Shown piece after piece: positions 1-14,199 of a stretch of 14,199 nt of DNA (position 1 is its first letter; every line of letters starts with the position of its first letter). The notes under the pieces were generated by a model. That model worked only from the letters and a program-made list of their open reading frames with translations. It was not told where the DNA came from and searched no databases. The stretch covers positions 1,838,225 through 1,852,423 of the forward strand of contig CP070682.1 of assembly GCA_020352595.1 (NCBI GenBank), read 5' to 3'. The DNA comes from a bacterium (GTDB lineage Bacteria; BMS3Abin14). Made by a program: the position numbers and the translations under genes.

Positions 1-167
1 ACCTGCGCCTTGACGGTGACGGCAACCCCAATGTCCTGGAGGTCAACCCCCTTCCCGGTCTGAACCCCGAGCACTCGGACCTGCCCATCATGTGGACCAA
101 GGAAGGCCTGCCCTACGGACAGCTCATCTCGGAGATCACGGGGTCCTGTCTGGGGAGAGATCCGTGA
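1..167 (+). CDS. D-Ala-D-Ala-ligase-like ATP-grasp enzyme, C-terminal end (partial)
   Basis: Only the last 54 codons are in the window, read from base 3 to the TGA at 165-167. They contain LRLDGDGNPNVLEVNPLPGL, the final ATP-grasp segment of the D-alanine-D-alanine ligase family. The Glu and second Asn of LEVN are expected Mg-ATP ligands. The following PEHSDLPIMWTKEGLPYGQLI tail also resembles the end of Ddl-type ligases. Such enzymes join an amine to an ATP-activated carboxylate. The stop overlaps the GTG start of the next gene (GTGA at 164-167), so the two ligases are probably translated together. The substrate-selecting N-terminal part is outside the window, so it may make something other than D-Ala-D-Ala. 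A housekeeping ddl normally sits with mur/fts genes; here the neighbours are a deacetylase and acetyltransferases, which argues for a specialised role. Confidence 0.85.
   Translation, partial: LRLDGDGNPNVLEVNPLPGLNPEHSDLPIMWTKEGLPYGQLISEITGSCLGRDP
152..160 (+). promoter_or_regulatory. Ribosome binding site for the second ATP-grasp gene
   Basis: GGGGAGAGA lies inside the end of the upstream gene, and its GGAG core is 6 nt before GTG 164. It supports GTG 164 rather than the in-frame ATG at 92, which would force a long overlap and a non-homologous N-terminus. Confidence 0.6.
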
Positions 168-1195
168 CGGAAAGGATCCCCATCCTGGTCAACGACCTGC
201 CGGATGGCGCCCGTGCCGACGAGGCCGACGTCCTGGTCCAGGCCCAGGCCGTTGAGGGTGCCCTCACGACCCTCGGCTACGAGACCGGCATCGTTGAGTT
301 CGCAACGCGTCCCGAGGTCCTGAGCCGCCGCGTCGGCGGGGAAGGGACCGCCGCCGTGTTCAACCTCGTGGAGGCCGTCAACGGGGAGAACCGCCTGCAG
401 CACCTCGCCCCCCTCGCCCTCCAGCGGCTGGGATACCTGTACACCGGCAACTCGTCCGAGGCTCTCATGAGAACCACCGACAAGACGGTGGCCAAGGAGG
501 TCATGGTCCAGTACAGGGTCCGCACGCCCTGGTGGATGGTGGCCGGGGAACAGTCCGGCCCCCGCAGTGTGGGTGGCAGCGGGGAACGAAGAAACATGAT
601 CTTCAAACCCGTCAACGAGGACGCCTCCCTCGGCATCCGCGAGGAGCTCATCGGACCCTACAGCGAGGACGAGGCCCTGGATGTTCTCGGGGCCCTGGAA
701 GGCGAGACGGGCATGCAGTACATGGCCGAGGAGTACATCGCGGGACGGGAGTTCAACGTTTCCCTCATCGAGGCCGCCCATACGCCCTGCGTCCTGCCCA
801 TCGTGGAGCAGGATTTCGCCTTTCTGCCGCCCCAGTGCGCCCACGTCGTCGGCTACCGCGCCAAGTGGGTGCAGGGTTCGGTGGAGTACACGGCCATCCC
901 GAGGAAACACCACTTCAGCCTTCAGGACCGGTCCATGCTCGAGGACGTGCGGCACCTGGCCCTGAGGTGCTGGAGGATCTTTCACCTGTCCGGTTACGCC
1001 CGGGTGGACGTGAGGGTGGACGCCGCGGGCACGCCCTACGTCCTGGAGGTCAATGCCAATCCGTGCCTGTCCCCGGACGCCGGCTTCGCATTCGCCGCCT
1101 CCCTCGCCGGGTTGTCCATGACCGACGTCGTCCGCCTGGTGGTGGACAGCGCCATCAGGTCAGCGGCCCCGCCCAGGCGGGCAAGGGCCCGCTAA
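164..1195 (+). CDS. Second D-Ala-D-Ala-ligase-like ATP-grasp ligase
   Basis: A 343-residue protein starting at GTG 164, chosen because the stop of the previous gene overlaps it and a GGAG site precedes it. It is full length for the Ddl family (about 300-350). Seen: the N-terminal domain with an FNLVEAVNG segment (residues 67-74, like the FN..hG of Ddl), an ATP-binding lysine in IFKPVNEDASLGI (K148), AEEYIAGREFNV (188-199), YARVDVRVD (278-286) and the metal-binding LEVNANP (294-300, E295 and N297). The family activates a carboxylate as acyl phosphate and couples it to an amine. It is paralogous to the gene just upstream; two different ligases in tandem suggest two successive amide bonds or a heteromeric enzyme. 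The stop is 5 bp before the next gene. The substrate cannot be read from sequence; peptidoglycan D-Ala-D-Ala synthesis is unlikely given the neighbours. Confidence 0.85.
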   Translation: MTERIPILVNDLPDGARADEADVLVQAQAVEGALTTLGYETGIVEFATRPEVLSRRVGGEGTAAVFNLVEAVNGENRLQHLAPLALQRLGYLYTGNSSEALMRTTDKTVAKEVMVQYRVRTPWWMVAGEQSGPRSVGGSGERRNMIFKPVNEDASLGIREELIGPYSEDEALDVLGALEGETGMQYMAEEYIAGREFNVSLIEAAHTPCVLPIVEQDFAFLPPQCAHVVGYRAKWVQGSVEYTAIPRKHHFSLQDRSMLEDVRHLALRCWRIFHLSGYARVDVRVDAAGTPYVLEVNANPCLSPDAGFAFAASLAGLSMTDVVRLVVDSAIRSAAPPRRARAR

Positions 1196-1200
1196 GGCCT

Positions 1201-2943
1201 ATGTTCCGTATCCGCAGGATCCACGACATCACCACCCCCTTCAACAGGATGGCCCTCGACCAGGTCAAGGAGATCCTGCGCGTCCAGTTCCCGGGCCTGT
1301 CGGCCTCCGAGATCGAGAGTGTGGAGCGGCAGCTCATGGATCCCCTCAAGTACCGGTTCCGAGCCGTTCTCCTGGTGGCCGAGGACTCGCGACAAAGGGT
1401 CAGGGGGTTCGCTCTCCTGCTCCACGCCCCGGACCTGAAGTTCGCATACCTGGAGTACATCTCGGCGGCGCCCGGAAAGACGGGGGGCGGCATAGGAGGA
1501 GTCCTCTACGAGAGGACACGTGAGGAAGCCAGGGACCTGGGCACGGTGGGGATCTTCTGCGAATGCCTTCCGGATGATCCGGCCCTGAGCCCCGACCCCG
1601 AGGTCAGGCGGCAGAACGAGGCCCGGCTGAAGTTCTACGAGCGGTACGGGGCCAGGCCCATCGCCGGGACGGCCTACGAGACCCCCCTGAGCCCCGGCGA
1701 CGACAACCCGCCCTACCTGGTCTTCGACGACCTGGGGAGCGGACAGCCCCTCCCCAGGGACCAGGCCCGGGTCATCGTGAGGGCCATCCTCGACCGCAAG
1801 TACGGGGACCGTTGCCCCCCGGGCTACATCGACATGGTGGTGGAGTCCTTCAGGGACGACCCCGTGCGGCTTCGGGCGCCACGCTACGTGCGTGCCGGCG
1901 AACAGAGTCCACCGCCCCGGGCGGTGATCCGGGAGCGGCGCATCGCTCTGGTGAAGAACGACAACCACGACCTCCATCACGTCAGGGAAAGGGGGTACGT
2001 GCAGTCGCCCGTGCGCATCGCCTCCATCCTGAGGGAGATCCTCCCCACCGGGCTCTTCGAGGAGGTCCGGGCGCACCACTTCTCCGAGGATCACATCCGG
2101 CGCGTGCACGACGGAGCTTTCGTGGATTACCTGAAAAAGGCGTGCTCCATGGTGGCACCCGGAAGGTCCATATACCCTTACGTCTTTCCCATCCGCAATG
2201 TCGCGAGGCCGCCCAGGGAGCTGCCCCTAAGGGCCGGATACTACTGTATAGACACCTTCACGCCCCTCAACGGGAGCGCGCTCAAGGCGGCCCTCGGCGC
2301 AGTGGACTGCGCCCTGACCGGCGCTCAGGCCGTCCAGGAAGGGTACCGGTGCGCCTATGTCCTGGTGCGGCCTCCCGGGCACCACGCGGAGAGGCGGAGC
2401 TTCGGGGGCTTTTGCTACTTCAACTCCGCGGCCATCGCCGCCGACGAACTGAGCCGTTCCGGTAAAGTGGCTGTCCTGGATATCGACTACCACCACGGCA
2501 ACGGGACTCAGGACATCTTCTACAGGCGTGCGGATGTCCTGACCGTCTCCATCCACGGGACGCCGCGCCTGACCTACCCCTATTTCTCCGGCTTCGAGGA
2601 GGAGAGGGGAGAGGGGACAGGGCTGGGGACCAACCGCAACTTTCCCATGCCGGAGGGCACGGACGGGACCGCCTATGCCGAGGTGCTGGGCAAGGCCCTC
2701 GGGGTGGTCAAGCGCTTCGGGCCCCGGTTCCTCGTCGTGGCCCTCGGGCTGGACACCGCCAAGGGGGACCCCACAGGCTCCTTCCTGCTGGCGGCCAGGG
2801 ACTTCACCGCCAACGGCCGCATGATCGGCTCGCTGGGCCTTCCCACACTCGTGGTGCAGGAGGGCGGTTACCGCACACGCTCCCTGGGTGCGAGCGCACG
2901 AAGCTTCTTCACCGGCCTCTGGGAAGGGCTGGGCAAGGTGTGA
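1201..2943 (+). CDS. GNAT acetyltransferase - acetylpolyamine amidohydrolase/histone-deacetylase fusion
   Basis: A 580-residue, two-domain protein starting at ATG 1201, 5 bp after the previous stop; only a weak AAGG precedes it, so coupling is likely. Residues 1-175 form a GNAT fold: YISAAPGKTGGGIGG (86-100) is the acetyl-CoA loop and LKFYERYGA (143-151) the C-terminal GNAT motif. Residues 176-242 look like a linker with a small helical part. Residues 243-580 are an arginase-fold deacetylase: RPPGHHA (390-396, catalytic His pair), GGFCYFN, DIDYHHGNGTQ (427-437; D429 and H431 as Zn ligands), LGLDTAKGDPTG (D518, third Zn ligand) and QEGGY (Y557). All expected catalytic residues are present. GYYCIDTFTP and HGTPRLTYPYFSGF resemble acetylpolyamine amidohydrolases more than AcuC, so a small acetylated amine is the likeliest substrate (inference). 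One chain thus carries an acetyl-writing and an acetyl-removing domain. Confidence 0.9.
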   Translation: MFRIRRIHDITTPFNRMALDQVKEILRVQFPGLSASEIESVERQLMDPLKYRFRAVLLVAEDSRQRVRGFALLLHAPDLKFAYLEYISAAPGKTGGGIGGVLYERTREEARDLGTVGIFCECLPDDPALSPDPEVRRQNEARLKFYERYGARPIAGTAYETPLSPGDDNPPYLVFDDLGSGQPLPRDQARVIVRAILDRKYGDRCPPGYIDMVVESFRDDPVRLRAPRYVRAGEQSPPPRAVIRERRIALVKNDNHDLHHVRERGYVQSPVRIASILREILPTGLFEEVRAHHFSEDHIRRVHDGAFVDYLKKACSMVAPGRSIYPYVFPIRNVARPPRELPLRAGYYCIDTFTPLNGSALKAALGAVDCALTGAQAVQEGYRCAYVLVRPPGHHAERRSFGGFCYFNSAAIAADELSRSGKVAVLDIDYHHGNGTQDIFYRRADVLTVSIHGTPRLTYPYFSGFEEERGEGTGLGTNRNFPMPEGTDGTAYAEVLGKALGVVKRFGPRFLVVALGLDTAKGDPTGSFLLAARDFTANGRMIGSLGLPTLVVQEGGYRTRSLGASARSFFTGLWEGLGKV

Positions 2944-2957
2944 CACCGTGTCGGGTG

Positions 2958-3028
2958 CGGGTGCCGCGGCCGGTCCGGCGCCTGCGCGGCACCCGGGACA
3001 AGGGACGGCGCCGGCGTGAGGCTTTTTT
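2958..3028 (+). promoter_or_regulatory. Attenuator-like competing stems between the fusion gene and the GNAT gene
   Basis: Two perfect GC stems share space and cannot both form as simple hairpins. Stem 1 pairs 2958-2968 with 2985-2995 (11 bp). Stem 2 pairs 2975-2982 with 3007-3014 (8 bp), its left arm lying in the loop of stem 1. A run of six T (3023-3028) follows stem 2 after 8 nt. The spacing to the T run is longer than in a canonical terminator. It may set the level of the last gene relative to the first three; no ligand or leader peptide is evident. Confidence 0.35.
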
Positions 3029-3066
3029 GGAAAAGGACACTTTAAAGAAGGTTCTGGAGGCGGGCA

Positions 3067-3621
3067 ATGAGGCAGACAGTCAGGGAATCGGATATCAAGA
3101 CCGTGAAACACATCGTCGGTTCCACCGGCTTTTTCACCGAGGCGGAGACCGAGATGGCGGGCGAACTTGTGGAGACCTACCTGAGCCAGGGTGAGAAGAG
3201 CGGATACAGGTTCCTCTTCCTGGAGGAAGGTGAAAGGACCGTGGGTTACGCCTGCTTCGGCGAGATCTCGTGCGCCGAGCGCCGGTACGACCTGTACTGG
3301 ATCGCCGTGGAATCGGGCCACCAGGGAAAAGGATACGGCAAGAAGCTGCTCGAAGGGGTCGAGAAGGAGATCGGCCGTCTCGGCGGCGAGAAGATCTTCA
3401 TCGAGACCTCCTCCAGGCGGCAGTACCTGCCCACACGCCAGTTCTACAGCGCCCGGGGTTATGAGATCGAGGCCCAGCTCAGAGATTTCTACAGCTGGGG
3501 GGACGACAAGGTGATCTTCTCCAAGACGCTGTCCGACGCCGCCAGCAAGGAGAGCGGTCCCAAGGACAGGAACCGGCCGCTCAAGATCAGGCGGATCCAG
3601 TTCCGCAGCATGAGCGGATAA
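3067..3621 (+). CDS. GNAT-family N-acetyltransferase
   Basis: A 184-residue protein with GGAGG (3056-3060) 6 nt before ATG 3067. It is a typical single-domain GNAT: the core beta strand and acetyl-CoA loop are WIAVESGHQGKGYGKKLLE (78-96), with the Q-x-x-G-x-G signature at Q86-G91, followed by IFIETSSRR (110-118) and QFYSARGYE (125-133) with the usual tyrosine. It should transfer acetyl (or another acyl) from CoA to a primary amine. The last 30 residues are a charged tail not needed by the fold. It lies 123 bp after the fusion gene on the same strand, so it probably belongs to the same cluster and could be the main acetyl donor step, while the fused GNAT domain could act on another intermediate. 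The exact substrate is unknown. Confidence 0.85.
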   Translation: MRQTVRESDIKTVKHIVGSTGFFTEAETEMAGELVETYLSQGEKSGYRFLFLEEGERTVGYACFGEISCAERRYDLYWIAVESGHQGKGYGKKLLEGVEKEIGRLGGEKIFIETSSRRQYLPTRQFYSARGYEIEAQLRDFYSWGDDKVIFSKTLSDAASKESGPKDRNRPLKIRRIQFRSMSG

Positions 3622-5120: not shown

Positions 5121-5966
5121 TCAGCCCTTGACGGCGCCCAGGGTGAAGCCGGCGATGAACCGGTCCAGGAAAAAGGTGTACAGGACAGCCACCGGGAGGC
5201 TTGGGATGAGAGCCCCCGCCATGAGGGATCCCCACCGGAAGACGTCGCCCCGCACCAGTTCTGTGGGCACCCCGATGCTGACTGTCTTGTGGGCCGAGAC
5301 CGAGATGAAAGCCAGGGCATAGATGAACTCGTGCATGGTCAGTGTGAAAGCGAACACCACCACCGTGAGGAGCCCGGACACGGAAAGGGGCAGGACCACC
5401 TTCACCATGGCTCCCAGGCGGCTGTAGCCGTCGATCTGGGCCTGCTCCTCGATGTCCCGGGGTATGGACTTGAAGAAACCCATGAGCAGCCATGTGCAGA
5501 AGGGAATGGTGAAGGTCGGGTAGATGACGATGAGAGACCAACGCGACTCGTGAAGTTTCAGCACCGAGATGACCCTTGACATGGGGATGAACAGAAGGGT
5601 GGGGGGGACCAGGTAGGTCAGGAAGATCCCGATGCCGAGGGTCTCACCCCAGCGGCCCGCCCAGCGCGCCAGGCTGTAGGCCGCCGGGACAGCCACAACA
5701 AGGGTGATGAGCACGACGACGGCACCCACGTACAAGGTGTTGAACAGGTACTTCAGGAAGTGGGTCTGGTTGATGAGCAGGTCCAGGTGCTCCAGTGTTG
5801 GCGGCTCGTTGAGCAGGAACGGGTTGTTGGCCGGGCTGAACAGGTCGTGGTCCCGCTTGAACATGGTGATGAGCATCCAGAAGAAGGGGAAAGCGGAAAA
5901 GAGGGCGAAGAAGGTCACCACCGGGTAGACCGCGAACCCCTCCCGTACCCTTCGTCCGGCGGCCAT
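5121..5966 (-). CDS. CUT1-type sugar ABC transporter permease (MalG-like)
   Basis: A 281-residue inner-membrane protein with about six membrane segments, the first at residues 11-36. The permease coupling motif for the ATPase is at 173-193 (EEQAQIDG then VLPL), the EAA loop with its conserved Gly (G180) and LP. Such proteins form a heterodimer with the MalF-like subunit and open the import path. The ending AGFTLGAVKG is typical of MalG-type subunits. The start ATG (5964-5966) overlaps the stop of the MalF-like gene by one base (TGATG), so translation is coupled. It is the last gene of the operon, and a hairpin follows the stop. Length and motifs are normal for the family; the sugar cannot be inferred. 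Confidence 0.93.
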   Translation of the reverse strand: MAAGRRVREGFAVYPVVTFFALFSAFPFFWMLITMFKRDHDLFSPANNPFLLNEPPTLEHLDLLINQTHFLKYLFNTLYVGAVVVLITLVVAVPAAYSLARWAGRWGETLGIGIFLTYLVPPTLLFIPMSRVISVLKLHESRWSLIVIYPTFTIPFCTWLLMGFFKSIPRDIEEQAQIDGYSRLGAMVKVVLPLSVSGLLTVVVFAFTLTMHEFIYALAFISVSAHKTVSIGVPTELVRGDVFRWGSLMAGALIPSLPVAVLYTFFLDRFIAGFTLGAVKG

Positions 5967-6910
5967 CAGTTCACCTCCGTCCGCCTGGCCAGCCTGAGCA
6001 TGAGGGTGGCCACTCCGGCCAGGACCGGGAAGAGGAACAGGGCGATGGCCGCTCCCTGGGCAAGGTCGCCCCCCTCGATCCCCTTGAAGAAGGCCCAGCT
6101 CGCCAGGACCTGGGTGCTCTGGACCGGGCCGCCCCTGGTAAGGATGTAGACCACGGTCATGTCCGTGAAGGTGAAGACGACACCGAACAGCACGGCGATG
6201 CTCATGATGGGCAGGAGCAGGGGGATGATGATGGAAAACAGCCTCTGCCGGAAACCGGCCCCGTCCACCTCAGCGGCTTCCAGGATGTCCTTGGGGATGG
6301 CGGTCAGGCCGGCCAGGAGGATCACCGTGGCCAGCGGCAGCATCCGCCAGGCGTGGACCACCGTCACGGAGGCCATGGCCAGCCCCGGTATGCCCAGCCA
6401 GTACAGGTTGGAGTTGACCCCCAGAAGAGCACCGGGTCTGCCCAGCAGGCCCACGTACCTGAGCACCCAGTCCATGGGGCTGAAGATGGAGTCGAACATC
6501 CAGAGCCAGCCGATGGTGCCCAGGGCTATGGGGGCCGTCCACGGCAGCAGGATGAGGAAGCGCACCAGCCACTTTCCACGGAACTCCTTCATGAGGGCGA
6601 GGGCCAGGATCTTGGACATCACCAGGACCAGGGCCTGCGACGCGAAGGTGAAGATGAAGGTGTTTTTCAGGGACTGGCGGAAGACGGGATCCCCGATGAC
6701 AGTCCTGAAGTTGGAGATCCCCACGTAGTCGAGGCTCGGGTCGCCCGTGGTGGCGTCGCTGAGGCTGATGAAGACGGCCAGCAGAAAGGGGATGCCCACG
6801 AGAAGGGCGATGTAGATGACGGCCGGGGCCGTCATGAGGGCGGAGAGCAGCCTCGGATCGTCACGGAACCTGAAAGGGCCGTGCGGCTGTTTTTTCTGTT
6901 CAGGCGCCAT
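5966..6910 (-). CDS. CUT1-type sugar ABC transporter permease (MalF-like)
   Basis: A 314-residue inner-membrane permease. A short basic cytoplasmic N-terminus is followed by the first membrane segment (about 22-48) and at least five more. The EAA coupling loop is EAAEVDGAGFRQRLFSIIIP (211-230) with Gly217. YILTRGGP (255-262) is a strongly conserved segment of MalF/UgpA-type subunits. It is shorter than E. coli MalF because it lacks the large periplasmic insertion, as is usual for most CUT1 permeases. It pairs with the MalG-like product and the MalK-like ATPase. The start overlaps the 3' end of the ATPase gene by 11 bp and its stop overlaps the next ATG by one base, so the three genes are tightly coupled. 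Confidence 0.93.
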   Translation of the reverse strand: MAPEQKKQPHGPFRFRDDPRLLSALMTAPAVIYIALLVGIPFLLAVFISLSDATTGDPSLDYVGISNFRTVIGDPVFRQSLKNTFIFTFASQALVLVMSKILALALMKEFRGKWLVRFLILLPWTAPIALGTIGWLWMFDSIFSPMDWVLRYVGLLGRPGALLGVNSNLYWLGIPGLAMASVTVVHAWRMLPLATVILLAGLTAIPKDILEAAEVDGAGFRQRLFSIIIPLLLPIMSIAVLFGVVFTFTDMTVVYILTRGGPVQSTQVLASWAFFKGIEGGDLAQGAAIALFLFPVLAGVATLMLRLARRTEVN

Positions 6911-7952
6911 GAACGTCCCTCAGGGCGAACCGGCCCTCGAGCCTCAGCCCCGTGCCGGCGTCGAAGAAGTTGAGCTTGTCCTTGGGCACCGCGAAGGTGT
7001 AGCTCTCCTTCGGCTCCACTGAAAAGGTGACGTTGGCCGAGAGTTTGGCCACCACGTGCCTGTGGGCGAACTCCCGTTCAACGTTGCCGTAGATGAGCCG
7101 GTCGGACCCCAGGTCCTCCATCCAGGTGACGTCGAAACGGAAGCGCTCCACGTCCCGGTCGTCACCGTACAACTGGACGGGCAGGAAGTTCTCGGGCCGG
7201 AACCCGATGACCAGCCCGTCCTTTTCCAGGAGGTTCATGGGCGGGGACCCCAGGAAGGTGGCCACGAAGGTGTCGGCGGACCTGTGGTACACCTCGTGGG
7301 GCGTCCCAACCTGGCGCACCCTCCCCTCGTTCATGACCACGATGCGGTCTCCGAGGCCCATGGCCTCCACCTGGTCGTGGGTCACGTAGAGGGTCGTGAT
7401 CCCGATCCTCTTCTGGAGCTGTTCGAGCTCCTCCCGGGCGGAAGTCCTCAGCTTGGCGTCCAGGTTGGAAAGGGGCTCGTCCAGGAGGAACACGCTGGGT
7501 TCCCGCACCATGGCCCTGGCCAGGGCCACTCTCTGACGCTCGCCCCCGGACAGTTCCCGCGGTCTGCGGGCCAGAAGATGGCCGATGCCGAACATGGAGG
7601 CGCTCCACATGACCTTCTCCCGGATGTCCTCCCTTTGCATCTTCAGGGGCTTGAGGGGGAAGGCGATGTTCTTGAACACGGTCATGTGCGGGTAAAGGGC
7701 GTAACTCTGGAACACCATGGCCACGTTGCGCTGCCTCGGCGGGAGCTGCGAAACATCCCTCCCCTCGATGAACACATGGCCTGCGGAGGGGATCTCCAGC
7801 CCGGCGATCATGCGCAAAAGGGTCGTCTTGCCGCAGCCGGACGGCCCAAGGAGTACCAGGAACTCCCCGTCACGGCTTGCCAGATCCACACCGTCCACGG
7901 CGGTGACATCCCCGAACTTCTTGACGATCTGCCTGACTTCAACGATGGCCAT
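6900..7952 (-). CDS. CUT1-type sugar ABC transporter ATPase (MalK/UgpC-like)
   Basis: A 350-residue cytoplasmic ATPase starting at the ATG complementary to 7950-7952 (MAIVEVRQIVKKFG), where family homology begins. An ATG 33 bp upstream would add 11 non-conserved residues, and its nearest Shine-Dalgarno is 16 nt away. Seen: Walker A GPSGCGKTT (36-44), Q-loop Q82, signature LSGGERQ (134-140), Walker B VFLLDEP (154-160) with catalytic E159, D-loop SNLD and switch H192. The C-terminal region from about 235 is the TOBE/regulatory domain (GFRPENF, LNFFDAGTGLRL), slightly shorter than E. coli MalK. It energises import through the two permeases. It is separated from the binding-protein gene by about 260 bp that include a strong stem-loop, which may give more binding protein than ATPase. 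Confidence 0.94.
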   Translation of the reverse strand: MAIVEVRQIVKKFGDVTAVDGVDLASRDGEFLVLLGPSGCGKTTLLRMIAGLEIPSAGHVFIEGRDVSQLPPRQRNVAMVFQSYALYPHMTVFKNIAFPLKPLKMQREDIREKVMWSASMFGIGHLLARRPRELSGGERQRVALARAMVREPSVFLLDEPLSNLDAKLRTSAREELEQLQKRIGITTLYVTHDQVEAMGLGDRIVVMNEGRVRQVGTPHEVYHRSADTFVATFLGSPPMNLLEKDGLVIGFRPENFLPVQLYGDDRDVERFRFDVTWMEDLGSDRLIYGNVEREFAHRHVVAKLSANVTFSVEPKESYTFAVPKDKLNFFDAGTGLRLEGRFALRDVHGA

Positions 7953-8159
7953 GTTCCGGCACTCCGGACCGGCTCTCACCGGCATTGCAGCGGGACCAGA
8001 GCCTCCTGCGGAGGGCGGGCCCCGTCATCTGGTCAACACTTTCCCATCGGCGCTTCGCTCATGACCGGCCCTGGCGGCAGTCCGACGATGCCGGATCAAT
8101 GAGCCCGGGCCGCCGTCCGATGATAGACCGAACAGTGGACGGGAGGCAAAGGGTAAAAG
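7953..8159 (-). other. Spacer between binding-protein and ATPase genes
   Basis: An unusually long gap inside a transporter operon. On the - strand it has a TTGACC hexamer (rc of 8031-8036) without a good -10 partner, and a small GC hairpin with GGAGG at 8002-8016. No coding sequence is recognisable. It may be an extended 5' leader for the ATPase gene. Confidence 0.35.
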
Positions 8160-8195
8160 CAGGCCCTCCCCCCGCGGTTACGGGGGGAGGGCCTG
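8160..8195 (-). terminator. Strong stem-loop after the binding-protein gene
   Basis: A perfect 15-bp stem pairs 8160-8174 with 8181-8195 around a 6-nt loop (TAACCG on the - strand). On the - strand it is followed directly by TTTTACCCTTT. It lies 17 nt past the binding-protein stop. This is a good intrinsic terminator or 3' stabiliser; partial read-through would express the downstream transporter genes at a lower level, as is known for malE-malF-type operons. Confidence 0.75.
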
Positions 8196-8212
8196 AAGCG
8201 GTGGCATCCGCG

Positions 8213-9652
8213 TCAACTGGTGCCGCCGACGACCCCTTTCTTGCGCCACTTGTCGAAAATGGCCTTGATCAGCGTCTCTGCCTGCTCCACCGCCGTCTGG
8301 GCGCTCATCCCCCTGGCCGCGTTGGCCAGCATGTTGGGGACGACGAAGGTGGCGAACACCTCACCGATGGCCGGGTTGGCGGGGCCGGGATGGCCGACGT
8401 TGGCGCTCCATTTCTCGGCGTCCTTGAGAACGGCCAGCTTGCCCTTGGCCTCACCCTCGATGCGGAACGGATCGTCGTCGAACCAGGTGTTGTGGAGGTC
8501 CCTGAGGTTCTTGGCGCCCTTGACCGCGGGATAACCCCTGTCTCCGCCCTTGACGGCGGCGTCGAAGAAGGCCGGGGAGTTGTACAGTTCGCTGAAGTAC
8601 ATGGCCTGGTCGTAGTTGTCCACCAGGTCCAGGAGGAACTTCTTGGCCGTGTCCACGCTCTTGGAATAGGTGGGGATGATGTAGCTGTAGATGACGTGCT
8701 CGCTGCTCCACCGGGTGCCCCTGGGACCCTTCAGGGCGGGCACGCAGTAGACGTCCTTGGCGATCTCGGGGACCTGCTTCTGGGCCGAGCGGTAGGCCGA
8801 GATGGAGTTCAGGATGTAGGACGCCTTGCCCGCCAGGAGGGCCTGGTTGTTGGAGACGGCCGCCCAGGCGAACACCTCGGGGGTCATGGACTCCTTGAAC
8901 AGGCGGGCCATGAACTCCACAGCCTCGACGGTCCTCTCGTTGTTGATGATGACGTTCTCGTTCTCGTCCTGGACCCCCGAATCGTAGGACCACAGGAGGG
9001 CCCGCCCGGCCATGTTGGAGTCCAGTTCCTGGGAGAGGCCGATACCGAGCTGTATCCCCTGGTCCTTCTTGATCTTCCCGCCATAGGTTATGAGGTCCTC
9101 CCAGGTTTCAGGTCCATCCGCCTTGCCGGCCTTGTCCCAGAGGCTCTTGCGGTAGTCCCCCGGGTCGATGACCCACCCGTGGCAGAAACCGTAGAACTTC
9201 TTGGTGTTGGGGTTGTAGGAGCTCCTGACGGCGAGGGGATGCTGCCTGCCGAACCGCTTGACGGCCTCCTGGTTCACGTCGGTCAGATCCAGGACGCTGG
9301 GCTCGAACTGGGCCGGGGGAGAGATCCACTCGATGAGGTCGTGACCGTCCCCCGCCGCCACCTCGGCAGCGGTCCGGGCCCCGATCTCGGCAAGGCTGAT
9401 GTGGTCCACAGTCACCTGCACATCGTTCTCCTTGCCCCACGCCTGCGTGTAGTTGTCGAACCACTCCTGGTCGTACCTGGGGACGAAGTGGGACCACTGG
9501 AGGATCTTCAGCGTCTTGCCCGCCCCCCGCGCCTGCCGCGGAATGAAGATGTGGGGCGCGCTCAGGCCGGCCACCCCCAGGCCCGTGACTTTGACGAACT
9601 GCCTCCGGGTCAATCCACTCCCCGCTCTTTTCTCTTTCTTTTTCTCTTTCAT
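8213..9652 (-). CDS. Tat-exported extracellular solute-binding protein of a CUT1 ABC importer
   Basis: A 479-residue periplasmic binding protein with AGGAGGAGG right before its ATG. The N-terminus is basic with a twin-arginine motif TRRQFVK (15-21) and a weakly hydrophobic segment VTGLGVAGLSA, so it should be exported folded by Tat, with cleavage near residue 44. The mature start KTLKILQWSHFVPRYD and the inner AAEVAAGDGHDLIEW match the family 1 extracellular solute-binding proteins. The length is normal to slightly long. Tat export is less usual than Sec for sugar-binding proteins and may mean a bound cofactor or fast folding. It is the first gene of the operon, followed by ATPase and two permeases; a strong stem-loop follows. 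The ligand is unknown: a sugar or sugar-like compound is the default for CUT1 systems. Confidence 0.92.
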   Translation of the reverse strand: MKEKKKEKRAGSGLTRRQFVKVTGLGVAGLSAPHIFIPRQARGAGKTLKILQWSHFVPRYDQEWFDNYTQAWGKENDVQVTVDHISLAEIGARTAAEVAAGDGHDLIEWISPPAQFEPSVLDLTDVNQEAVKRFGRQHPLAVRSSYNPNTKKFYGFCHGWVIDPGDYRKSLWDKAGKADGPETWEDLITYGGKIKKDQGIQLGIGLSQELDSNMAGRALLWSYDSGVQDENENVIINNERTVEAVEFMARLFKESMTPEVFAWAAVSNNQALLAGKASYILNSISAYRSAQKQVPEIAKDVYCVPALKGPRGTRWSSEHVIYSYIIPTYSKSVDTAKKFLLDLVDNYDQAMYFSELYNSPAFFDAAVKGGDRGYPAVKGAKNLRDLHNTWFDDDPFRIEGEAKGKLAVLKDAEKWSANVGHPGPANPAIGEVFATFVVPNMLANAARGMSAQTAVEQAETLIKAIFDKWRKKGVVGGTS

Positions 9653-10866: not shown

Positions 10867-10906
10867 GCCGCCAGCAGGCGGCCTGAGGTTTTGCCGCCTT
10901 GGGCGG
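10867..10906 (+). promoter_or_regulatory. Four alternating complementary segments upstream of the PhzF-family gene
   Basis: GCCGCC (10867-10872), GGCGGC (10877-10882), GCCGCC (10893-10898) and GGCGG (10902-10906) allow pairings 1:2, 2:3 and 3:4, the topology of a transcription attenuator. Pairing 2:3 extends to 7 bp (10876-10882 with 10893-10899). No U run follows 3:4, so termination is doubtful. Chance is possible in GC-rich DNA. Confidence 0.3.
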
Positions 10907-10920
10907 TTCACGATTCAAGC

Positions 10921-10937
10921 CCCCGGCTTTGCCGGGG
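10921..10937. repeat. Hairpin repeat, copy 2 (CCCCGGC-TTT-GCCGGGG)
   Basis: The same 17 nt as at 10586-10602, 335 bp away, and 40 nt before the start of the PhzF-family gene. The two copies bracket the repeat-rich stretch. Confidence 0.7.
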
Positions 10938-10976
10938 TACATGACAATGTGCGACCAACAGCAGGGAGGAGGACCC

Positions 10977-11774
10977 ATGGAGACCAAGGAACTGCCCATA
11001 TACCAGGTGGACGCGTTCACCCCTCGCCTTTTCGCCGGCAACCCGGCCGCCGTGGTCCTCCTGGAGGACTGGCTGTCCGAAGGGACGATGCTGTCCATCG
11101 CCGCTGAGAGCAACCTGTCGGAGACGGCCTTTGTGATTCCCGGAGAGGGGGTGTGTGAACTTCGTTGGTTCACACCCGCAACGGAGATGGAGCTGTGCGG
11201 GCACGCCACGCTGGCGGCCGCCCACGTTCTTCTGAGTGAGTTCTACCCTGCCAGGGAGGTGGTCCGTTTCAACGCCGTGAGCGGCCCCCTTTCCGTGAGG
11301 CGGGACGGGGAGAGGCTCACCATGGACTTCCCGTCACGTCCCGGCGTCCCCGTGGAGGTCACTGGCGAGATGACGGCCGCCCTGGGCGCCAGGCCCGAGG
11401 AGGCCCTGCGCGCTTCCTATCTCCTCGCCGTCTTCGGGGACCAGGAGATGGTGGAGCGCCTGGATCCGGATCTCACCCTGGTCTCGGAACTGGACGCGAC
11501 GGCGGTCATCGTCACCGCGCCGGGGCGCGAGTGTGATTTCGTATCCAGGTTCTTCGCCCCGTCCCTGGGCATCCCCGAGGACCCGGTCACGGGGTCGGCC
11601 CACTGCACCCTCGTGCCCTACTGGTCCCGCCGGCTGGGCCTGAGGCGCCTGAACGCCAGGCAGCTCTCCCGAAGGGGAGGGGAGTTGATGTGCGAGTTGA
11701 AGGGAGGCCGGGTGGAGATGTCCGGCTGCGCGGTGACCTACATGAAGGGTGTCATCCGGGTGCCGGAATCCTAG
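10977..11774 (+). CDS. PhzF-family isomerase/epimerase
   Basis: A 265-residue protein starting at ATG 10977, preceded by GGGAGGAGG with good spacing. The reading frame is open further upstream, but that part covers the hairpin region and lacks family similarity. Conserved PhzF features: YQVDAFT (9-15), FAGNPAAVV (19-27), AESNLSETAF (43-52) with the catalytic acid E49, RWFTPATEMELCGHATLAAA, and EDPVTGSAHC in the C-terminal half. PhzF-like proteins form two similar half-barrels and catalyse proton shifts on small acids. True PhzF needs a phenazine cluster, which is absent, so this is one of the many family members of unknown substrate. The length is a little under the usual 280-300. It seems to be a single-gene unit, converging on the asparaginase gene with a 96-bp gap. 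Confidence 0.9.
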   Translation: METKELPIYQVDAFTPRLFAGNPAAVVLLEDWLSEGTMLSIAAESNLSETAFVIPGEGVCELRWFTPATEMELCGHATLAAAHVLLSEFYPAREVVRFNAVSGPLSVRRDGERLTMDFPSRPGVPVEVTGEMTAALGARPEEALRASYLLAVFGDQEMVERLDPDLTLVSELDATAVIVTAPGRECDFVSRFFAPSLGIPEDPVTGSAHCTLVPYWSRRLGLRRLNARQLSRRGGELMCELKGGRVEMSGCAVTYMKGVIRVPES

Positions 11775-11870: not shown

Positions 11871-12845
11871 TCACCCCTCGGGCGTCCCGGCGTCCTCCGG
11901 GTCCCAGAAGGAGGCCAGAAAGTCGGCGAGCGCCTGCCTGTCCAGACCGTTGCCCAACGCCAGCCGCGCCAGGATGCAGGTCTTGAGCGCGTCGAAGGGT
12001 GAGAACACGATGGGCCTTCCGGACAGGTCCTGATAACTTCCGGCGAAGGAGTACTCGTCCCCCAGGCCGCCGTCCTGGACGCGCGTGGTGACGAGGGTCA
12101 GCCTGTCCGGGTTCTCGTCCACCGCTTTCAGGAGCCTCTCCGGTACCCGTCCGCCGCCGAGACCCTCGATGACGACCCCGGCATACCTGCCGTAGGCGTC
12201 CCTCAGGAATTGATCCTCGATGTCGTAGTGGACCTTCACCAGCGCAACAGCTTCTCCCGGGCGGTTGTCCAACCGGCTGTGCGTTCGCGTCCCGTAGTGG
12301 TAGAGGACGCGACCGGCCTCGACGGTTCCGAGCATCCCCCCGCGGGCGCTGCCGAAGGCGCGCGTCTTGAGCGTCTGCACCTTCCGGGCGTAAAGGCCCC
12401 AGATGATGTCCCCCCCGAACACCACCAGCACCCCCCGGCCGGCTGAAGCCGGGTCCGCGGCGACGCGGAGGGCGTCACGGAGGTTGGCCTCACCGTCAGC
12501 ACCTGGCCTGTCGGGCGTGACCATGGCGCCCGTCAGGACCACAGGTCTGTCCGCCGGCAGGACCATCTCCAGGTAGAAAGCCGTCTCTTCAAGCGTGTCG
12601 GTACCGTGGGTCACCACGAAGGCGTCGTGATCGGAAGCGGCGATGAAAGCGGCCAGCCGGCTGGCGAAAGCCGTCTGGAAGGAAGAGGAGGGGCTACGGC
12701 TGAAGTCGTGTCCCCGGACCTCCACACCCTCCATCCCCGCTTCCCTGACGAAGTCCGCCGATTCGAGGGCGAAGGTGGAAAGGGTCTCCCCCTCGGCCCT
12801 TTTCATGGCGATGGTCCCGCCTGTAGACACCAGCAGGATCCTCAA
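11871..12845 (-). CDS. L-asparaginase (cytoplasmic-type, asparaginase/glutaminase family)
   Basis: A 324-residue enzyme that hydrolyses L-Asn to L-Asp and ammonia. The start is TTG (rc of 12843-12845), preceded by GGAGGAGGG (12851-12859); no ATG lies near and the family homology begins at once with MRILLVSTGGTIA. Seen: the first catalytic loop STGGTIA (7-13, nucleophile T11), the second signature VVTHGTDTLEETAFYL (77-92, T82 and D83), ADGEANLRDAL (116-126) and a lysine at about 155 in YARKVQT that fits the active-site Lys. There is no signal peptide, so it is cytoplasmic. The length is normal. A rare TTG start may lower its translation. It is the last gene of a likely operon after the membrane protein, 37 bp away. 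Glutaminase or other amidase activity cannot be excluded. Confidence 0.92.
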   Translation of the reverse strand: MRILLVSTGGTIAMKRAEGETLSTFALESADFVREAGMEGVEVRGHDFSRSPSSSFQTAFASRLAAFIAASDHDAFVVTHGTDTLEETAFYLEMVLPADRPVVLTGAMVTPDRPGADGEANLRDALRVAADPASAGRGVLVVFGGDIIWGLYARKVQTLKTRAFGSARGGMLGTVEAGRVLYHYGTRTHSRLDNRPGEAVALVKVHYDIEDQFLRDAYGRYAGVVIEGLGGGRVPERLLKAVDENPDRLTLVTTRVQDGGLGDEYSFAGSYQDLSGRPIVFSPFDALKTCILARLALGNGLDRQALADFLASFWDPEDAGTPEG

Positions 12846-13284: not shown

Positions 13285-14199
13285 CTAGTCCCACTGGATC
13301 ATCTTCATCCCGGCATCGAAATAGCGCTCGCCTGAAGCGGCTCCGGGCGGGAACAGCTGGGCCAGCCGGAGGAGGTCGGCGTCGTCCAGGGCTATGGTGA
13401 GGGCGGCCACGTTCTCCTCAAGGTGCGCCACCCTGGTGGTGCCGGGGATGGGCACCATGTCAGGCCCCTGGGCCGTGACCCAGGCCAGGGCGAGCTGGGC
13501 CGCCGTGCAGCCCCTGGCCCTCGCCAGAGCATCCAGGCCCCGGACCAGCTCCAGGTTCTTTTCCAGGTTCTCACCCTGGAACCGGGGAAACCGCTCGAGG
13601 CGCGCATCCCCCTCCCGCGCGAACTCCCGGCTGCTCCAGGCTTTCCCTGCCAGGAGAGCCCTGCCCAGCGGGCTGTACGGGACGAAGCCGATGCCCAGTT
13701 CCCTGCAGGTGGGGATCACCTCCTCCTCGGCCTCCCTCGTCCAGAGGGAGTATTCCGTCTGCAGCGCCGATATGGGGTGGACCGAGCTGGCCCGGTGCAG
13801 TGTCCGCGGGCCCGCCTCGCTCAACCCGAGGAAACGGACCTTGCCTTCCTCCACCAGCCTGGACATCTCACCCACGGTGTCCTCGATGGGTACCTCCATG
13901 TCCACGCGGTGCTGGTAATAAAGGTCGATGGTGTCGGTCCCCAGACGGCGCAGGCTCCCCTCACAGGACCTGCGCACGTATTCCGGGCGCCCGCACACAC
14001 CGGTGAACCCGCCCCCAGGGTCGCGCATCACACCGAACTTGGTGGCGATGACGAATTCGTTGCGCTTGCCGCCCACGGCCCTGCGCACCAACTCCTCGTT
14101 GTGCCCTCTCCCGTACATGTCCGACGTGTCCAGGAAGGTGACTCCCAGATCCAGGGCGCGGTGGATGGTGGCTATGGACTGCTTCTCGTCGCTGGGACC
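13285..14199 (-). CDS. Aldo/keto reductase (5' end outside the window)
   Basis: An open frame of 304 codons plus stop that runs off the right edge; the ATG at 14118 is internal, since the frame upstream reads [21 protein letters not shown], the standard beta/alpha segment of aldo/keto reductases. The catalytic tetrad is visible: Asp in FLDTSD, Tyr in DMYG, Lys in VIATKFG and His in YYQHRVD. Further family motifs are [31 protein letters not shown] and the NADPH-binding [15 protein letters not shown]. Only about 20-30 N-terminal residues are missing. It should reduce aldehydes or ketones with NADPH in the cytoplasm, in the YajO/general stress-type subgroup (AKR11/12-like). It is the first visible gene of the - strand group with the membrane protein and asparaginase. 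The substrate is unknown. Confidence 0.93.

Follow-up and report, generated by a model that had tools for sequence, protein, structure and literature searches.

A stretch of 14,199 nucleotides from a bacterium of the BMS3Abin14 lineage (assembly GCA_020352595.1, contig CP070682.1; G000:C1:1838225-1852423 in our labelling, hereafter the window) begins inside a compact gene cluster that recurs in many other genomes. The cluster encodes a relative of lysine 2,3-aminomutase (KamA), two ATP-grasp ligases with the fold of the D-alanine-D-alanine ligases (Lig1 and Lig2; the housekeeping enzyme is called Ddl below), a separate GNAT acetyltransferase (GNAT2) and a fusion protein, Fus, in which a GNAT precedes a deacetylase resembling acetylpolyamine amidohydrolases. 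The conserved unit is KamA-Lig1-Lig2 plus GNAT2, with Fus as a frequent partner. We place it with ATP-grasp small-peptide synthesis and give a probability of about one half to its being a module that makes an acetylated, beta-lysine-containing small peptide.

A scan with Fus, using one genome per species, returned at least 568 relatives among the 592 matched stretches listed, from which the best 80 loci were kept. All five genes lie together in 30 of these 80 loci, in genomes other than the source, while 16 carry a partial set, many of them cut by contig ends, and 34 have Fus without any operon gene nearby. By title, the five-gene loci include Thermodesulfobacteriota, Pseudomonadota, Bacteroidota, Planctomycetota (Phycisphaerae), Chloroflexota (Dehalococcoidia) and Ignavibacteria, most carriers being metagenome-assembled genomes, whose taxon labels can be wrong. 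Since the arrangement recurs in so many genomes it is more than chance, and an earlier interpretation made from the letters of the window alone (the sequence-only reading), which a gene order unique to this genome would have refuted, is borne out on this point. Even where Fus stands alone, a Lig2 relative is usually encoded elsewhere in the genome: Lig2 scores 304 bits or more in 31 of these 34 genomes, the other three giving 242 bits (G045), 204 bits (G031) and only 119 bits (G022). The 20 genomes that score highest with Lig2 were examined further; in 17 of them KamA, Lig1 and Lig2 occur together, and GNAT2 is near in 17. An adjacent ligase pair was present in 66 of 120 related loci examined; the 42 pairs with at least 3.5 kb of flank on both sides (24 of the 66 have less) are accompanied by KamA in 42 cases, by GNAT2 in 39 and by Fus in 21, the last share being biased upward because the loci were mostly found through Fus. 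Clustering of the open reading frames of the 80 loci revealed no further gene common to many clusters, the largest real-looking family outside the cluster being present in nine loci.

Some variation around the cluster was also recorded. Divergent variants (L154, L031, L037, L072, L082, L005, L006, L008, L027 and L050) have other gene orders or ligases that are only ca. 30-38% identical to those of the source genome. A gene for a MarC-like membrane protein lies beside the cluster in L005, L008 and L027, and one for a C39-like peptidase in L057 and L064, each having been scanned in one locus.

Both ligases have the small-substrate type of Ddl fold over their whole length, and neither is a housekeeping Ddl. 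In a tree restricted to loci with exactly two ligase open reading frames of 290-400 amino acids (27 loci plus the source genome), Lig2 forms a clade with support 100/99, Lig1 groups with one other row (97/84), and the Ddl clade (100/100) contains 17 Ddl only, so that Lig1 and Lig2 do not group with the Ddl of the same genomes; the source genome encodes its own Ddl elsewhere. Alignment of 28 Lig1 and 28 Lig2 indicates that nine ATP/Mg-site residues of Ddl are kept in all 56 sequences, barring one Glu-to-Asp replacement in Lig2, and that Ddl His62, Tyr206 and Leu271 are replaced in all 56. At the positions of E. coli DdlB that we take to set D-Ala specificity, Tyr216 is Tyr in none of the 56, Ser150 is Ser in nine and Thr in 19 of the 28 Lig1 and Ser in none of the 28 Lig2, and Glu15, where the alignment is unsure, is Glu in one Lig1 and three Lig2. 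The domain model Dala_Dala_lig_C (cut-off 24) matches the complete Lig1 with 91.2 bits and Lig2 with 48.7 bits; with NF002378 (cut-off 243 bits) both fall short, at 133.1 and 88.2 bits. The fold and the ATP/Mg residues are thus shared with D-Ala-D-Ala and D-Ala-D-Lac ligases, whereas the separate clades and the loss of most D-Ala contacts mark a pocket of non-Ddl type. The sequence-only reading had set these proteins apart from peptidoglycan precursor synthesis, which these results support. They resemble L-amino acid ligases such as BL00235 (3vot) in being ATP-grasp enzymes of the dipeptide-forming kind, although the match of 3vot to Lig1 is weak (26.5 bits, against up to 74.6 for Ddl chains).

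KamA is closest to 2a5h, a lysine 2,3-aminomutase. Asp293 and Asp330 of 2a5h, which we take to bind lysine, are present in all 33 aligned rows, as are three cysteines and a lysine that presumably hold the Fe-S cluster of a radical S-adenosylmethionine (SAM) enzyme and its pyridoxal phosphate (PLP), respectively. The pocket of KamA is therefore of lysine type. Among family models the best score is with that of AblA (TIGR03820, 475.5 bits, below its cut-off of 525.4); that of EpmB (TIGR03821, cut-off 369.3) gives 259.9 bits, and the LAM_C domain is matched only over positions 1-55 of 127. With KamA in the cluster, lysine and beta-lysine are indicated rather than a polyamine.

Pairwise distances of KamA, Lig1 and Lig2 also agree with one another. 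For genomes that also yielded a Ddl (n 14-16), distances correlate between KamA and Lig1 (rho 0.78), KamA and Lig2 (0.62) and Lig1 and Lig2 (0.60), and do not track those of Ddl (-0.08 to 0.22). Over all shared loci the values are 0.84 for KamA-Lig1, 0.73 for KamA-Lig2, 0.67 for Lig1-Lig2 and 0.57 for Lig2-GNAT2. When the divergent variants are left out, KamA-Lig1 (0.61) and Lig2-GNAT2 (0.75) still agree and KamA-GNAT2 does not (0.04); on one reading, KamA would feed Lig1 and GNAT2 would handle the product of Lig2. A tblastn search of 72,556 plasmid records found no match to Fus (E 1e-60) or to Lig1 (E 1e-30).

The nearest solved structure to GNAT2 is 2r7h, whose depositors list it as a putative D-alanine N-acetyltransferase. 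A literature search on Dde_3042 to Dde_3046, presumably the locus tags at the source of 2r7h, found no paper. In Fus, both halves appear intact in the 38 aligned rows, of which 20 stem from loci that also carry operon genes and 18 do not: Gly97, Gly99 and Tyr146 of the GNAT half are invariant, and so are the zinc ligands, both His and the Tyr of the deacetylase half, in operon-linked and other rows alike. One further match, L045:8001-9746, has an internal stop codon and was left out. The structural model of Fus is of moderate quality, with a mean predicted local distance difference test score of 82.5, a predicted template modelling score of 0.62 and low-confidence loops in the deacetylase half; a sequence search of the PDB with residues 1-240 returned no match better than E 0.09.

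The best sequence and structure matches of the deacetylase half are acetylpolyamine amidohydrolases. Of the RPPGHH, EGGY and PIS motifs that PMC11532494 describes for bacterial polyamine deacetylases, the first two occur in all 38 rows, whereas the third is replaced by Pro-Thr-Gly (PTG) in all 38. Fus differs also by its GNAT fusion. The residue aligned with Glu106 of the M. ramosa enzyme is Pro in 23 rows, Ser in six, Ala in six, Glu in two and Ile in one; Glu106 is itself not universal, being His in PsApaH, and the position two residues earlier in Fus is acidic in 37 of 38 rows. An Arg at position 344, found in 35 of 38 rows, would go well with a substrate that bears a carboxylate, such as an acetylated amino acid or peptide; position 340, acidic in 37 of 38, would speak against this.

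Taken together, these data suggest a pathway. L-lysine would be converted to beta-lysine by KamA, acting as a radical-SAM/PLP lysine 2,3-aminomutase, a step that its residues make well supported as a prediction. Lig1 and Lig2, whose fold and intact catalytic sites support the ligation steps, would then make amide bonds by way of acyl phosphates of the carboxylates, and a small beta-lysine peptide would result. For the later steps the support comes from gene context: GNAT2 would acetylate a free amine, either on the product or on an intermediate, and Fus, as a two-headed acetyltransferase/deacetylase, would adjust or recycle acetyl groups in many, though not all, hosts. That beta-lysine is a substrate of the ligases we regard as probable, and an acetylated di- or tripeptide as the product is slightly favoured. 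The likeliest role of such a product would be that of a solute, inert in metabolism and with its charges neutralised, of the type of N-acetyl-beta-lysine or N-acetylglutaminylglutamine amide, possibly helping with stress such as salt, although we advance this compatible-solute role only tentatively. Equally tentative is the wider picture of a widespread, horizontally moving pathway to a so far unrecognised class of acetylated beta-lysine di- or tripeptides, made by a dedicated pair of non-D-Ala Ddl-fold ligases, in which many hosts keep a single polypeptide that adds and removes acetyl groups as a reversible switch on a free metabolite and not on a protein.

The sequence-only reading is partly supported by these results. 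An amide product based on amino acids fits better than a peptidoglycan precursor, whereas the polyamine that it had also entertained is disfavoured by KamA and by the lack of the PIS motif in Fus; its order of events, protection by acetylation, ligation and deprotection, does not emerge from these data, and Fus is a frequent partner and not a fixed member. Its statement that no named pathway fits the gene set holds, none having been found to match. EF-P is beta-lysylated through EpmB and EpmA, where a KamA-family aminomutase likewise supplies beta-lysine for amide formation, as proposed here, with a LysRS-like EpmA in place of the ATP-grasp ligases. The abl pathway (AblA/AblB) has in common with the cluster a lysine 2,3-aminomutase and a GNAT, and differs in the two added ligases and in the KamA and GNAT2 scores, which are below the cut-offs. 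Synthesis of N-acetylglutaminylglutamine amide, likened to the cluster by description, involves ATP-grasp and GNAT activities (genes asnO and ngg) and, to our knowledge, no aminomutase or deacetylase. The compound itself is an acetylated small peptide used as an osmolyte, as stated in PMC1224877.

Several observations weigh against the proposed module. In the 80 loci, neither transporter genes nor osmotic genes accompany it with any regularity, and Rfam at gathering scores revealed no riboswitch in 26 sources (the window and 25 loci, three of the 26 being from the source genome), its only hits being a group II intron and a tRNA. Carriers include, by title, freshwater and groundwater samples, and a role in salt stress is therefore not favoured. 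Without the divergent variants, the correlation falls to 0.32 for KamA-Lig2 and to 0.28 for Lig1-Lig2. Fus distances are inconsistent with those of the operon (rho 0.06 to 0.64 against KamA or Lig1, depending on the subset) and track Ddl in a small set of genomes (rho 0.65, n 12). Finally, in 274 genomes of the class of a Dasania carrier (gammaproteobacterial), 10 of 15 Fus genomes are without the operon and six of 11 operon genomes are without Fus.

The link between Fus and the operon is weaker in this last sample than in another. In 199 genomes of the class of a Pseudodesulfovibrio carrier (E up to 1e-100 for Fus, up to 1e-60 for Lig2), Fus was found in 35 and Lig2 in 43, with both in 35 and neither in 156 (Fisher p 1.2e-31); in one of these genomes, G083, only the deacetylase part of Fus matches. 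Four of the eight Lig2-only genomes were examined, and all four have KamA-Lig1-Lig2, three with GNAT2, and no linked Fus. In the gammaproteobacterial sample, with a Lig2 limit of 290 bits that was set after the scores had been seen, Fus occurs in 15 genomes, Lig2 in 11 and both in five (p 9e-5). A first count there of Lig2 in 10 of the 15 Fus genomes was lowered to five: of the 22 Lig2 matches, 11 score no more than 273 bits and proved, where examined (five of the 11, the other six being assumed alike), to be lone ligases outside the operon. Five of the 10 Fus genomes without the operon were inspected and have no operon gene beside Fus, while five of the six operon genomes without Fus were inspected and have KamA-Lig1-Lig2-GNAT2. 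These counts, in which Fus or the operon often occurs singly, mean that Fus is not obligate, and its standing as an obligate fifth member was given up. In a sample of the phylum of the source genome, Fus was found in two of 12 genomes (E up to 1e-60).

Two side observations come from the same gammaproteobacteria. In G343 (L163, L164) Fus is present twice, and nothing in the genome matches the operon at the limit applied. Lone Lig2-like ligases were seen in L168, L169, L170, L176 and L177; the neighbour of the one in L170 matches PF15887 (Peptidase_Mx), and this is perhaps another undescribed pair of a ligase and a peptidase.

The foremost alternative is that Fus is an enzyme of amine or polyamine acetylation and deacetylation in its own right, often linked to a beta-lysine operon that works without it, which would be compatible with the proposed role of the ligases. 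The gammaproteobacterial Fus genomes, the 34 loci without operon genes nearby, the agreement of Fus with Ddl and the closest structures all lean this way. They are countered by Lig2 in all 35 Fus genomes of the 199-genome sample, by the Lig2 matches elsewhere in nearly all stand-alone-Fus genomes, by the departure from polyamine deacetylases at the PIS site, by a Glu106 position that is acidic in only two of 38 rows and by two loci (L032:5204-7477 and L080:8001-10262) in which Fus and GNAT2 form a single open frame, GNAT-deacetylase-GNAT. On balance we consider this alternative unlikely, if still the most serious.

Distinctly less probable is a beta-lysine secondary metabolite, an antibiotic-like or signalling peptide for which acetyl addition and removal would serve self-protection or an activation switch. 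Beta-lysine is found in peptide antibiotics such as the streptothricins, and operon genes that track one another and not Ddl are what a mobile unit would give; yet no gene for an exporter, for resistance or for a carrier protein is repeatedly found next to the clusters in the 80 loci, and a compact set is kept across several phyla. We give slightly less credence again to attachment of beta-lysine, or of a beta-lysine peptide, to an acceptor that might be a protein, the cell wall or a lipid, in the manner of EpmA/EpmB or RimK. The KamA family includes EpmB, and ATP-grasp ligases can modify proteins, as in tagging by RimK; against this stand the score of KamA below the EpmB cut-off, the small-substrate fold of both ligases and the lack of any regularly linked target gene in the 80 loci. 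A last reading, in which the cluster makes nothing beyond the N-epsilon-acetyl-beta-lysine of the abl pathway and the ligases have some other function, would suit the AblA-like score of KamA and the regular presence of a GNAT, and is the least likely of all given a GNAT2 score of 25.1 bits with the AblB model TIGR03827 (cut-off 205.1), the constant company of KamA and the ligase pair and the agreement of their distances.

The layout of the cluster in the source genome is given in Table 1. The sequence-only reading had correctly described the ligases, their close spacing to Fus, the fusion and the GNAT, and its observation of a cluster is confirmed by reading frames and Pfam; most of Lig1 and the whole of KamA had escaped it. 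Base 1 of the window directly follows a 100-N gap in the scaffolded source genome (2.16 Mb, 73.7% complete) and is thus a contig end. A search of the genome against itself located positions 1-303 of the window again at G000:C1:761213-761515, with three mismatches in 303, and this second copy ends at another 100-N gap. Because the copies are nearly identical and both abut gaps, they look like two ends of a single broken contig and not like a duplication. The contig with the second copy carries the complete Lig1 and, just upstream, KamA, so that the window alone lacks the gene with which the cluster starts. KamA-Lig1-Lig2-Fus-GNAT2 is the most probable natural order and is also the one found in 11 of the 66 loci with a ligase pair.

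Table 1. Position of the cluster genes in the window and in the other contig of the same genome (L004).
Feature	Position	Strand	Remarks
Lig1, C-terminal end (Ddl-fold ATP-grasp ligase)	1..167	+	reading frame; stop codon 165-167; ca. 55 residues inside the window
Lig2 (second Ddl-fold ATP-grasp ligase, 343 aa)	164..1195	+	GTG start overlaps the TGA stop of Lig1
Fus (GNAT and acetylpolyamine-amidohydrolase-like deacetylase, 580 aa)	1201..2943	+	PF00583 (Acetyltransf_1, 22.3 bits, cut-off 20.7) and PF00850 (Hist_deacetyl); 5 bases after Lig2
Fus, GNAT half	1201..1740 (end approximate)	+	Gly97, Gly99 and Tyr146 conserved; end taken from the secondary structure of the model
Fus, deacetylase half (residues 268-572)	2002..2916	+	PF00850, 240.6 bits; closest solved structures 6phr, 9gkz and 3q9b
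GNAT2 (separate acetyltransferase, 184 aa)	3067..3621	+	PF00583, 45.1 bits; 2r7h, 131.3 bits
KamA, other contig	L004:3102-4388		upstream of Lig1
Lig1, complete gene, other contig	L004:4406-5380		downstream of KamA

The scaffold places these two apparent ends of one contig ca. 1.08 Mb apart (gaps at L003:9901-10000 and L004:5517-5616), and gene orders across other N gaps of this genome may be unreliable. Just past the gap, short CCAGG/GGTACTTGG-type repeats are densely packed in L004:5700-5850. Elsewhere in the window, the minus strand of 5121-9652 encodes an ATP-binding cassette importer set (two BPD_transp_1 permeases, an ATPase and a solute-binding protein) that shows no linkage to the cluster in other genomes as far as seen; a PhzC-PhzF family protein (10899-11774, plus strand), an asparaginase family protein (11871-12845, minus strand) and an aldo/keto reductase (13285-14118, minus strand) follow.

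A search of the available literature found no publication describing this gene set; the 2009 amidoligase survey of Iyer and others may predict part of it, and we therefore make no claim to have noticed it first. The enzyme families are known; the way they are combined, how widely the set is spread and the two-headed Fus seem not to have been described before. Among family models the ligases match only those of D-Ala-D-Ala ligases, below the cut-offs, and a recurrent pathway may therefore hide under housekeeping names. If the cluster does make beta-lysine peptides, these would be microbial metabolites of a new class that might serve as compatible solutes, Lig1 and Lig2 would be a source of ligases for peptides of beta-amino acids, and the GNAT and deacetylase joined in one chain would offer a natural model for the reversible acetylation of small molecules.

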